This document shows, piece by piece, positions 13,511 through 16,454 of a stretch of 64,000 bases of DNA. The notes beneath the pieces were generated by a model. That model saw nothing but the letters and a program-made list of their open reading frames with translations. It was not told where the DNA came from and ran no database searches. Both the position numbers and the translations under genes were made by a program. The stretch comes from Desulfobulbaceae bacterium BRH_c16a (GTDB taxonomy: Bacteria > Desulfobacterota > Desulfobulbia > Desulfobulbales > Desulfocapsaceae), in the NCBI GenBank assembly GCA_000961725.1, contig LADS01000049.1, forward strand, positions 124,001 through 188,000. The letters run 5' to 3'. The stretch's first letter is position 1. Each line of letters begins with the position of its first letter.

Positions 13511-14062
13511 ATGAATTTGTCAAATTACACCCTCTTCAGCAGCGGCCTCAAAGGTGCCGAAGCATCCTTCGGTGAAACAGCGGAAAAGCTAGGCATCAAC
13601 GAGGTTGTCTACTCCTTTGACGGCCATAAACTTACCCGCGATAAAAATGTGGTGATCCTGAAGAAAGAACAGCTCGAACGTGGCGACATCAGTATGGAAC
13701 TTGCCTCACGCATGCTCAATCGCACATACTATGAAACCGATAAAATCAGAAAAGTTCTCCAAACCATCTTTCATATGGTCAACAGCGGCCACCAGGTATT
13801 TGTCATCGGCGCAATCCAGGAGGACGATTCGGTCAAAGGCGGCACCGGCTGGGCGGTGGAACTTGCCAAGATGTTCAATCGTCCTCTGCACGTTTTCGAC
13901 CAGCCTAAGAAAAAGTGGTTTACCTGGAAAAACGGCTGGCAGGAGGATTCACCGCGGATCGAATACGATACCTTCGTCGGCAGTGGAACCCGATATCTCA
14001 GCGATGCCGGGCGAGAAGCCATCGAAAAACTGTTTGAGGATTCGTTCGGCGACAAAATTTAA
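13511..14062 (+). CDS. SLOG-like Rossmann-fold protein of unknown function
   Basis: A 183 aa protein with features of the SLOG (SMF/DprA-LOG) nucleotide-binding superfamily: an N-terminal loop TLFSSGLKGAEASFGE, a central HQVFVIGAIQ strand, the glycine-rich GGTGWAVELAKMF (near residue 117), VFDQPKKKWFTWKNGW and a late FVGSGTRYLSDAG. The AAGGAG before the ATG is strong. SLOG proteins bind nucleotides or nucleotide-derived ligands, but the specific role is not known to me. It appears monocistronic, with its own promoter and a hairpin-rich 3' region. Confidence 0.7.
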   Translation: MNLSNYTLFSSGLKGAEASFGETAEKLGINEVVYSFDGHKLTRDKNVVILKKEQLERGDISMELASRMLNRTYYETDKIRKVLQTIFHMVNSGHQVFVIGAIQEDDSVKGGTGWAVELAKMFNRPLHVFDQPKKKWFTWKNGWQEDSPRIEYDTFVGSGTRYLSDAGREAIEKLFEDSFGDKI

Positions 14063-14078
14063 AAACTCCGACTTCACG

Positions 14079-14184
14079 AGGGGGTGACGATGAGTACCTT
14101 ACAGATTATTTTCGTTTATAAAAACAAGAAAATAATCTGCGAAAGGCACTTATGGTGCTTGGTCCTCACCCCCTGTCCTTTTTT
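14079..14184 (+). terminator. Composite multi-hairpin terminator or structured 3' element
   Basis: An outer 9-bp perfect stem, AGGGGGTGA (14079-14087) with TCACCCCCT (14166-14174), encloses a 12-bp perfect stem CAGATTATTTTC (14102-14113) with GAAAATAATCTG (14128-14139) and a small 6-bp hairpin (14144-14160). A six-base T run follows at 14179-14184. This is unusually elaborate for a simple terminator. Confidence 0.55.
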
Positions 14185-14216
14185 CACTCCGGCCATTCCC
14201 CCGCCCGAAATTTCAC

Positions 14217-14245
14217 TTGCTTTTAATTTTTCTGAACAATATAAT
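14217..14245 (+). promoter_or_regulatory. Sigma-70 promoter of the rhodanese selenoprotein gene
   Basis: TTGCTT, a 17-base spacer and a perfect TATAAT in an AT-rich tract. The predicted start near 14252 gives a leader of about 165 bases before ATG 14419. Confidence 0.6.
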
Positions 14246-14418
14246 TAAATTTAATAATTAAATACCGTACTGTTCCCACTTTTAAGCGGGGAAACAGAAT
14301 GGTAGAGGGCTTTGCTTGGGTTTCTGTTTAAGCATTTAAGATGATACTACCACAGCGTAGGATTGACTATCGGGAACAGATCACCCAATTCCTTTTTTTA
14401 ACAACAATGAGGTGGAAA

Positions 14419-15768
14419 ATGAAGAAGACGGTCCTAAAACTCGGCCTTGGTACCCTGCTGACAGCCAATGCGCTGATTCTCAGTGAGGCTTTTCTTCCCT
14501 TCACGGATGTGGTGCTTGCGGCGGATAAGGCAGCGGTAACAACTCCGGCGGAAGCAAAAACAGTCCAGGGAAAAATTGCAAATATATCGCAGAAAGCAAA
14601 AACCATCGCCCTGTCAACCCAGGACGGCGGATTTTTCCTCATGAAATTCACCGATTCGACAGTTTTCAAAGGTATGGATTCCGCGGCCGAGTTGAAGGAG
14701 GATGAAGCCATCATCGCCCTCTACACCGTCAGCGACGGCGAAAACATTGCCACCTCGCTGGAGAAAGATGTGGTGAAATTGCCCGAGGGCGCGAGGGAGA
14801 TAAAAACAGAAGAGCTTGTTGGACTGTTGTCTGATGACAAAACGGTAATTATTGACTCCCGGCCCGCTGAAAGGTACGCCGAGGGTCATGTTCCCGGTGC
14901 AGTTTCCATTCCTTTTTCCAAGCTTGTGACCATGGGCGAAGAAGGAGCGACACTTCTCAGCCCGTACAAGAACAAACACCTGGTCTTCTATTGTGGGGGG
15001 CCCACCTGAACTATGAGTCCAAAATCCGCCGGTCTGGCGAAAAAATGGGGTCATAACAATCCTTCAGTCTACGTTGACGGTCTGCCTGCCTGGAAAAAAA
15101 CCGGCAACAAAACAGTGCCGAGCATCGACCTTATTGCCGACGGCAATATTGTCCTGATCGACCTTCGAGCCAGAGCCGAGGCCGAAAAAGGTTTTATTCC
15201 AAGGGCCTACTCCGTCCCCTTCAGCGAATTGGAAGATGCTGAGGACGCCTTGCCGAAAGGCAAAGGCGCGCCGATTTATCTGTACTCCGATAATGATAAA
15301 GAAATTGCCGGCGCAAGTAAGATGTTAAAGGAATGGGGCTATAAAAACATCACCGGCTTTTACGGCGCACTTGCCGCCTGGACAAATGCCGGCAAACAGC
15401 TGCAGAAGGGACAGGCACTCATTGCTACCGATGACGCCCCCATCGCCTGGCAAAGAAAGCTTGGGACGGGAGAAATCAGCATTTCCGATTTCACCAAGTC
15501 ACTGCAGTCGGATTTAATCTTTGTGGTGGACGCACGCACCCCGGCAGAGTATGAATCCGGCCATTTCCCCAATGCAGTGAGTATTCCACTGGAGCAGATG
15601 AAGGCCCGGCTGGCCGAAATTCCAAAGGACAAGTTCATAGTTGTCCACTGCAAAACCGGAGGCCGAGGGGAAATAGGCTACAAAATGCTGAAAGATGAAG
15701 GCTATTCGGTAAAATTTCTCAACGCCGAATGCGAGTGTTCAACTTCAGGACAGTATGAAATCTGGTAA
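14419..15768 (+). CDS. Triple-rhodanese exported protein with predicted selenocysteine (TGA at 15007-15009)
   Basis: Read through one in-frame TGA, this is a 449-residue protein; without read-through it would split into 14419-15009 and 15013-15768, in the same frame. A signal peptide (KLGLGTLLTANALILSEAF) and an OB-like linker lead to rhodanese domain 1 (about 130-235, IIDSRPAERYAEGHVPGAVS). Its active loop reads YCGGPT, then Sec197, then TMSPKSAGLAKKWG; related proteins as I recall them have Cys at this place. Domain 2 (about 240-330) has lost its Cys (LYSDND). Domain 3 (about 355-440) keeps CKTGGR and ends in a C-E-C motif. GAGGTGG precedes the ATG at 14419. The second ORF alone has no ribosome binding site or signal peptide and starts in mid-domain. 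A SECIS-like hairpin follows the TGA. No sel genes lie in the window. A nonsense mutation is the alternative, though the continuing domain argues against it. Confidence 0.82.
15007..15053 (+). promoter_or_regulatory. Putative bacterial SECIS element with its UGA codon
   Basis: From the TGA at 15007, a hairpin CGCC (15027-15030), loop GGTCT (15031-15035), GGCG (15036-15039) begins 17 bases after the stop. A weaker lower stem, TGAGTCC (15014-15020) with GGGGTCA (15047-15053), can extend it. The loop matches the AGGUCU apical loop that SelB reads in E. coli fdhF, and the GGU lies 22-24 bases past the UGA, within the known bacterial range. Confidence 0.7.
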
Positions 15769-15823
15769 TAATCAATTTCTGCCTGCTCTCCCTGTTTCAT
15801 CCCCCCCTGGCATGATGAATCGC

Positions 15824-15855
15824 AAGGCCCGGAGATAACATTCCGGGCCTTTCCT
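15824..15855 (+). terminator. Rho-independent terminator of the selenoprotein gene
   Basis: AAGGCCCGGA (15824-15833) pairs with TCCGGGCCTT (15842-15851), ten base pairs with an eight-base loop, followed by a short pyrimidine run TTCCTTCTTC. It lies about 55 bases after the stop codon. Confidence 0.8.
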
Positions 15856-15903
15856 TCTTCGTATCCGCCACAGATTCGCCTTCGTTCATCCCCCCTTTCA
15901 TCG

Positions 15904-15932
15904 TTGACACCGGTTTCATAACGGCATATTCT
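15904..15932 (+). promoter_or_regulatory. Sigma-70 promoter of the cupin gene
   Basis: A perfect TTGACA, a 17-base spacer and TATTCT. The predicted start near 15939 is about 33 bases before the ATG. Confidence 0.65.
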
Positions 15933-15971
15933 TGTGGATAGGTTTGATCTCTTTCCATTCATTCAAGAGCC

Positions 15972-16454
15972 ATGAACTACACCAAATGCCACTTTGATTT
16001 CACCGATCTCCCCTGGCTGACCAGCCCACGACGGCAACTCGATCTGCACAGTGTCGCCATCGGCCTCATCAAGCTGCCGCCAAACGAAGGGTACACCTTT
16101 ACCCATCGGCACCGGAAACAGGAGGAGGTCTATCTGGTCATCGAAGGCAGTGGGCTTATCCTGGTGGATGACGACCTGCTGGAACTGACAAAAGGAGACG
16201 CCGTGCGTGTTTCTCCCGAGGCGAGGCGGGCCCTCAAAGCCGATAAAGAAGGATTGCTGGTGATCTGTGCGGGAGGAGTGGGCCACGGATACCCGGAAAA
16301 TCCGAATTCCCGCTACCTGATCGATGACGGCATCCCCGACTACGATGACATTCCGCCATGGTATGAAGGAAACAGCGAAGTCGTTGCCCGAAATGCCCGG
16401 TTAAAAAAACGCTGGCAGAAAACCCTGGCGAAAACAGAAGCTTCCGATACTTGA
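15972..16454 (+). CDS. Cupin-domain protein of unknown substrate
   Basis: A 160 aa single-domain cupin. The first cupin motif is FTHRHRKQEEVYLVIEGSG (near residues 37-55), giving two His and a Glu as likely metal ligands, and the second half reads LTKGDAVRVSPEARRALKAD. The later His of the second motif is missing, which is common in non-enzymatic or divergent cupins. The C-terminus is charged and probably helical. It has its own promoter between the selenoprotein terminator and the rhomboid gene. The function cannot be named. Confidence 0.75.
   Translation: MNYTKCHFDFTDLPWLTSPRRQLDLHSVAIGLIKLPPNEGYTFTHRHRKQEEVYLVIEGSGLILVDDDLLELTKGDAVRVSPEARRALKADKEGLLVICAGGVGHGYPENPNSRYLIDDGIPDYDDIPPWYEGNSEVVARNARLKKRWQKTLAKTEASDT

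Follow-up and report, generated by a model that had tools for sequence, protein, structure and literature searches.

The locus studied here raises the question of whether an in-frame TGA ends one protein and separates it from a second, or is read as selenocysteine (Sec) within a single protein, and what a rhodanese-like protein might do with selenium at that position. It lies on the plus strand of the window, the whole 64,000-nucleotide stretch of DNA that was analysed, as do all features described below. Two open reading frames, 14341-15009 and 15013-15768, share one frame and meet at a single TGA (15007-15009), and an ordinary list of open reading frames splits the gene in two. An earlier note had proposed that the two belong to one selenoprotein with a signal peptide and three rhodanese domains, the second frame alone starting in the middle of a domain. 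The analysis bears out this architecture: the frames are separated by that one TGA, a signal-like N-terminus can be read, Pfam finds three rhodanese stretches, and position 15013 falls inside the first of them.

The joined coding sequence (14419-15768) encodes 449 residues followed by TAA. The listed frame starts instead at 14341; the sequence AGGTGG at 14410-14415 stands just 5' of ATG 14419, which opens a signal-like stretch, MKKTVLKLGLGTLLTANALILSEAFLPFTDVVLAADK (14419-14526, read from the sequence alone, with an approximate end), and the relatives from the same genus (L097-L103) begin alike, with MKK or MKR. The 449-residue protein is probably exported. A small N-terminal domain without a Pfam match (14560-14781, approximate bounds) precedes three stretches matching Pfam Rhodanese (PF00581; E 5.6e-44, 149.2 bits against a gathering score of 22.2). 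Domain 1 (14809-15099, seen in the best Pfam stretch, 157-253 of P0001, and in the alignment) carries the loop Y-C192-G-G-P-T-U197-T-M-S. The Cys192 codon at loop position 1 occupies 14992-14994, and the UGA at 15007-15009 corresponds to residue 197 at loop position 6, five residues past the cysteine as the earlier note had counted, within a UxxS motif (U197-T-M-S200). Domain 2 (15124-15408, approximate bounds) has a degenerate loop, YSDNDKE, with no cysteine. Domain 3 (15487-15738, approximate bounds), supported by the conservation of CxxGxR and by relatives in the PDB, has the canonical loop C411-K-T-G-G-R, with the cysteine codon at 15649-15651. The canonical CxxGxR is thus present in domain 3 only, domain 1 has Sec at the position of the loop arginine and domain 2 lacks the loop cysteine, in agreement with the one degenerate and one canonical site described before. 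The tail, AECECSTSGQYEIW, contains a C-terminal cysteine pair, C438-x-C440 (15730-15738).

Relatives were sought within the phylum. Of 395 genomes searched, 107 have at least one match at E <= 1e-10, in many cases a lone rhodanese domain; the window gene aside, 49 matches are listed at E <= 4e-20, and 48 of these were followed as a first set, the one skipped being a match in G145 that adjoins another match. The motif C-x-G-x-x-U-x-x-[ST] with TGA as U occurs in 34 of these 48 loci, in three of them in domain 2. A search of the order covered 257 genomes, 162 of which have a match at E <= 1e-40, and this frequency speaks against the earlier description of the three-domain form as unusual; within the window's own genus, eight other genomes have a match at this threshold and at least six have none. 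From the order search 29 new loci were read as a second set, with TGA at the site in 22 and cysteine in seven, and one contig scan with the single protein, reaching beyond the phylum, gave one locus. Fragments L090, L091 and L096 were excluded from the protein alignment (L091 and L096 were kept for the hairpin comparison), as was L117 from the resulting set of 75 rows. Two of these rows, L018 and L097, come from one genome (their first 300 residues are identical), so that 74 rows are distinct.

In the column of residue 197, the place at which the earlier note had suggested aligning homologues, 52 of the 75 rows have Sec, 20 have cysteine and three another residue. The expectation that related proteins carry cysteine there thus holds for 20 of the 23 rows without TGA, and in the cysteine relatives the frame runs continuously across the site. 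That dozens of genomes have TGA in one and the same alignment column is far beyond chance. L097-L103, seven relatives that share the genus code of the window, carry TGA at this very site; this excludes a sequencing error and settles the doubt, raised earlier, that resequencing might turn the codon into TGT or TGC. Contamination of the genome bin stands at 6.01%, and a contaminating contig or a sequencing error at the TGA could be imagined on this account; the identical codon in those seven relatives and across the phylum refutes this with independent genomes, and the remaining chance of such an artefact is negligible.

The bases following the TGA can form a stem-loop of the bacterial SECIS (bSECIS) type at 15012-15055, with an upper stem of 4 bp (15027-15030 paired with 15036-15039), an apical loop GGUCU (15031-15035) and 21 nt between the UGA and the loop. 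The published bSECIS model, as given in the review PMC13188914, describes an apical loop of 3-9 nt, an upper stem of 4-16 bp, a G in the first two loop positions and a distance of 16-37 nt from the UGA, and the hairpin of the window satisfies these constraints. The 54 bases from the TGA onwards fold with -16 kcal/mol (z -2.85 against 200 dinucleotide shuffles). An Rfam scan of the 64,000-nt window gave no match at the gathering threshold.

Comparison among relatives ties the hairpin to the codon. In a first comparison, every one of 36 Sec genes combines the 4-bp stem with a G in its first two loop positions, and none of the 10 cysteine genes has a stem at that position; in the second set the stem is present in 22 of 22 Sec genes and in one of seven cysteine genes. 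Two-sided changes occur at two stem positions among the 36 Sec genes: position 20/32 is C-G in 28, G-C in five, T-A in two and T-G in one, and position 23/29 is C-G in 33, T-A in two and A-T in one. Of 35 Sec genes, 27 retain a full 5-bp stem, whereas 2000 resamplings of synonymous codons gave 3.6 on average and never more than 11. Folding energies alone separate the two groups weakly (mean z -1.66 for the 36 Sec genes and -1.10 for the 10 cysteine genes, mononucleotide shuffles). For L092-L094 the hairpins compared are those of a TGA in domain 2. The single exception in the second set, L106, is a cysteine gene that keeps a 4-bp SECIS-type stem with the loop GGCAT, and probably represents a recent change from Sec to cysteine.

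The genome of the window contains the machinery for Sec insertion, which the earlier note had proposed to look for as selA, selB, selC and selD; all four were found. The selA and selB matches exceed their cut-offs, selB as an open frame of 658 amino acids. The tRNA-Sec (selC) scores 72 bits and is called tRNA-SeC with anticodon tca by ARAGORN; a second match, at 47.3 bits, is barely above the cut-off of 47. Three selD matches exceed the cut-off (on contigs C36, C49 and C71), each with one in-frame TGA, and a motif scan of selD for the position of this TGA gave only unconvincing matches. Two of the three score identically, though the stretches, as retrieved, are not identical. Co-occurrence with selA was considered as a means of telling Sec from cysteine genomes and does not discriminate: selA is present in all 42 family genomes tested, of which 32 have the TGA and 10 lack it, and likewise in 18 of 20 genomes without a match in the phylum search.

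Both parts of the gene are maintained by selection. Across 21 pairs of seven sequences (the window gene and L098-L103), pN/pS ranges from 0.21 to 0.44 before the TGA (counted from residue 61) and from 0.17 to 0.38 after it, many pairs being close to saturation at synonymous sites; purifying selection acts on both sides of the TGA. A stop followed by a restart, yielding a pair of proteins, was considered and rejected, as the restart codon is not conserved: two codons past the TGA (15013 in the window) ATG is found in 33 of 57 Sec genes and TTG in one, and 23 have none of ATG, GTG and TTG. More generally, the UGA might insert no Sec at all and end a truncated protein, the second frame being a gene of its own, the product of a restart or a pseudogene. 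The ATG at 15013 would suit such an arrangement, and a terminated product may exist beside the full-length protein, but the continuous frames of the cysteine relatives, the 23 Sec genes without a start codon at that place, the SECIS-type hairpin, the selection on both sides and the Sec machinery together make this reading very improbable. Since the machinery, the homologue column, the RNA hairpin and selection all agree, we regard it as close to certain that the UGA at 15007-15009 is read as Sec by SelA, SelB, SelD and tRNA-Sec, as directed by the predicted hairpin downstream.

The family shows a conserved division of its loops. Domain 3 has CxxGxR in 74 of the 75 rows, Cys192 of domain 1 (loop position 1) is cysteine in 73, and domain 2 lacks both cysteine and Sec in its loop in 72. 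At least two cysteines occur within the last 22 residues of 52 rows (51 of 74 without the duplicate genome). A heme-c attachment site, recognised by motif only, lies just before the equivalent of the small N-terminal domain in 23 of the 75 rows, as CxxCH in 19 and as CxxxxCH in four more; the window protein has no heme-c motif near its N-terminus. In four proteins (L065, L066, L068 and L076) CxxxxCH replaces CxxCH, possibly as an unusual way of attaching heme c to a rhodanese selenoprotein. A start resembling a lipobox was found in 21 of 75 rows with a crude pattern.

On a quick maximum-likelihood tree, built with the Sec column left out, the heme motif needs one change and the distribution of Sec, cysteine and other residues at least 12, indicating that Sec and cysteine have often been exchanged between close relatives; L059 with Sec and L062 with cysteine are one such pair. 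Three of the 75 rows have neither residue at loop position 6 of domain 1. In L092 (7850-8833), L093 and L094, domain 1 has cysteine, and it is the loop of domain 2 that bears Sec, at the equivalent position (CGGYGU and CGGLGU), likewise with a SECIS-type hairpin: by the alignment, Sec has changed domain in these proteins. The genome of the window also encodes a second triple-rhodanese paralogue with TGA (G000:C17:14241-15452, in L049), which is distant (36% identical) and has CVEC where others have the heme motif.

Gene neighbourhoods were examined with profile scans of 17 neighbour proteins of relatives and seven of the window, and with searches for ExtM and PhsA in 43 genomes; four further places from the order search served for neighbourhoods only. 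Upstream of the window gene lie cmoA, cmoB and an unnamed gene of 183 amino acids, followed by a gap of about 350 bases, and downstream a possible terminator is followed by a cupin gene and genes resembling pyruvate carboxylase. The possible intrinsic terminator (15824-15851) has 11 pairs, seven of them G-C; a terminator consensus scan of 13900-16000 gave six sites, with a mean of 3.7 (sd 1.9) in shuffles. The 183-residue frame (13511-14062) has no Pfam or NCBIfam match and is found upstream in four of seven genus relatives, and a long A+T-rich palindrome (14101-14138) stands between it and the rhodanese gene. Of the seven genus relatives, five retain the cmoA/cmoB side and five the pyruvate-carboxylase-like gene. 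This context was weighed as a clue to function and set aside, as the conservation of cmoAB, the 183-residue gene and the pyruvate-carboxylase-like gene in the genus names no partner.

Elsewhere in the family, a gene for a PhsA/PsrA-like molybdoprotein lies within 4.5 kb of the family gene in six of the 48 first-set loci (L057, L082, L083, L088, L089 and L096). These neighbours score as PhsA below the cut-off, that of L057 scoring better as QrcB, and they are accompanied in places by an NrfD-type gene (by Pfam, L082) or an Fe-S partner (L083). No PhsA/PsrA-like reductase gene is nearby in the 20 second-set loci and the window (0 of 21). The 43 genomes (about 154 Mb) contain 244 PhsA-profile matches at E <= 1e-30; 60 among the matches listed reach 1e-100, and the curated PhsA cut-off is exceeded in none of the 43. 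From this background about 0.9 (1e-30) and 0.2 (1e-100) of the 48 loci are estimated to have such a neighbour within 4.5 kb by chance, against six and five seen. Four of the loci belong to one cysteine clade, which leaves the link with support from just two or three lineages.

That clade, with the cysteine form beside PhsA-like genes, also coincides with ExtM of the selenite/tellurite cluster. ExtM exceeds its cut-off in four of the 43 family genomes, which are exactly L082, L083, L088 and L089; extM lies on the same contig as the rhodanese gene at 8 kb in L082, 11 kb in L083 and 0.4 kb in L088, and on another contig in L089. With the PhsA-like genes, extM within about 11 kb gives three of these four loci surroundings that combine sulfur and selenite reductase genes. 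Proteins resembling ExtM but scoring below the cut-off are present in 15 further genomes, none near a family gene, and none was found in the genome of the window. A link of the window gene itself to sulfur or selenium respiration would be by analogy only.

The function that these features suggest is a matter of more tentative judgement. Our leading reading, to which we give slightly less than even weight, is that the protein is an exported selenoprotein acting as a relay that handles persulfides in periplasmic sulfur (or selenium) chemistry. Domain 3, through its CxxGxR loop, would accept sulfane sulfur, supplied by polysulfide or thiosulfate, and form a persulfide on Cys411, from which the sulfur would move to Cys192 of domain 1. 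The selenol of Sec197, standing in place of the loop arginine, would then attack the Cys192 persulfide, releasing sulfide (or handing the sulfur on) and leaving a Cys192-Sec197 selenenylsulfide. A periplasmic donor would re-reduce this bond, perhaps via the C-terminal cysteine pair and, in the CxxCH branch, perhaps via heme c; domain 2 would be structural. A loop arginine drives thiosulfate decomposition in RDL2, according to PMC8533005, and its replacement therefore suggests another chemistry in domain 1. The relay steps draw on analogy with TsoB, BH2092, Pcar_0429, Sud and a selenite reductase operon, which are compared below. In favour of the relay stand the conservation of CxxGxR in domain 3 and of Cys192 in domain 1, and the PhsA/PsrA-like neighbours of six first-set loci; against it stand the absence of such neighbours from the second set, the chance background of PhsA matches and the three rows with neither Sec nor cysteine at loop position 6. 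The AlphaFold model made from the window protein plus L018 (mean pLDDT 42, pTM 0.29) is too poor for a fold search or for tracing a path from domain to domain. A more specific version, which we think rather unlikely, sees in this phylum-wide exported three-rhodanese family a Sec-based persulfide (polysulfide) reductase, with domain 3 loading the sulfur, the Cys/Sec pair of domain 1 cutting it off as sulfide, and electrons arriving from the fused heme c in one branch and from the C-terminal cysteine pair in much of the rest. If true, periplasmic sulfur or selenium respiration would have a branch that depends on Sec.

The main rival to the relay is a purely redox role, in which Cys192 and Sec197 would serve, on a rhodanese scaffold, as the site of a thiol:disulfide (or peroxide) oxidoreductase and carry no sulfur. 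CxxxxU does resemble a redox pair, a related rhodanese selenoprotein with UxxxxU is annotated as DsbD fusion-like, the heme-c motif of 23 rows and the C-terminal cysteine pair of 52 (each of 75) speak for it too, and a review expects redox functions for most such selenoproteins (PMC9312934). The sulfurtransferase loop retained by domain 3 in 74 of 75 rows, and the sulfur-reductase-like genes adjoining some relatives, lead us to consider this role unlikely, if still a serious contender. Next comes a role in handling selenium itself: the protein might bind selenium derived from selenite as a perselenide and serve selenite reduction, detoxification or selenium delivery. The presence of ExtM over its cut-off in exactly the four cysteine-clade genomes, 0.4-11 kb away in three, points in this direction, and PMC5877670 cites a selenium-substituted rhodanese as a possible delivery intermediate. 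The signal-like N-terminus would nevertheless place the protein outside the cytoplasm in which Sec is synthesised, the ext link is confined to one cysteine clade with no ExtM-like protein in the window's genome, and selA is kept in all 10 tested genomes whose family gene lacks TGA (nine with cysteine, one with aspartate), all of which renders a selenium-handling role improbable. The persulfide relay thus remains our preferred working reading. The conserved layout, in which domain 3 has a canonical loop and domain 1 a Cys/Sec loop, electrons may enter through a heme-c motif or a C-terminal cysteine pair, and close relatives show natural swaps between Sec and cysteine, makes the question of why a sulfurtransferase would need selenium directly testable, and points to a possible place for selenium in periplasmic sulfur metabolism.

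Rhodanese selenoproteins as a class have been predicted before, as the earlier note had surmised. The passages of the reviews PMC13188914 and PMC9312934 name such forms, among them a form 1 with UxxS, represented by WP_010941598.1 and credited in PMC13188914 to Zhang and Gladyshev 2005. The window protein shares with form 1 the Pfam Rhodanese match and Sec in UxxS (U-T-M-S in the window, U-V-L-S in other relatives) and probably belongs to this class; by their motif, sequences with YCxGFRUVLS such as L069 are probably orthologues of WP_010941598.1. The review descriptions differ in that those passages are silent on the number of domains, the loop position, heme and the tail. The predicted proteins are named in the literature passages with no tested function, and the literature search, outside which most subscription papers lay, found neither a tested function nor any description of the three-domain layout, the loop-arginine replacement or the heme branch; queries on CXXXXC rhodaneses returned nothing, and those on rhodanese-heme fusions only a paper about another protein.

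Neither the window protein nor any of the eight relatives scanned reaches the cut-off of an NCBIfam model. TsoB (NF045694) is a rhodanese/DsbD fusion-like selenoprotein whose rhodanese region matches domain 1 (the window at E 8.4e-16, L092 at 1.6e-34) and which likewise has Sec inside a six-residue loop (UxxxxU); the window protein differs in having cysteine at loop position 1 and three rhodanese domains, and its 57.2 bits against a curated cut-off of 805 set it outside that family. The CxU rhodanese-related (seleno)protein rhodanese_LYCAU (NF041203) shares the rhodanese domain and has a known Sec-containing form; here the window protein scores 55.5 bits against 115, and its motif is CxxxxU, not CxU. 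Membership in ExtH (NF040901) was rejected as well (12.6 bits against 200).

Several systems are comparable in chemistry or setting, by description and not by sequence. Sud of Wolinella succinogenes is a single-domain protein not known to contain Sec. Like the window protein as predicted, it is a periplasmic sulfurtransferase, described in PMC3397948 as binding polysulfide and carrying the sulfur chain. SrrE and SrrF are rhodanese-domain proteins encoded in a respiratory selenite reductase operon whose reductase is TAT-exported (PMC12481199); the window gene, unlike theirs, is not beside such an operon. The solved rhodanese BH2092 (PDB 3nhv and 3o3w; 126 and 144 residues, one domain) is, on the other hand, related to domain 1 by alignment (E ~1e-8), its C-W-G-P-A-C loop (CxxxxC) having cysteine in place of Sec. 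The same chemical steps as in the relay suggested here have been proposed for Pcar_0429 of Pelobacter carbinolicus, a multidomain rhodanese enzyme likened by description and with no Sec mentioned in the passages of PMC3543383: a rhodanese persulfide, its relay, disulfide formation releasing sulfide, and re-reduction.
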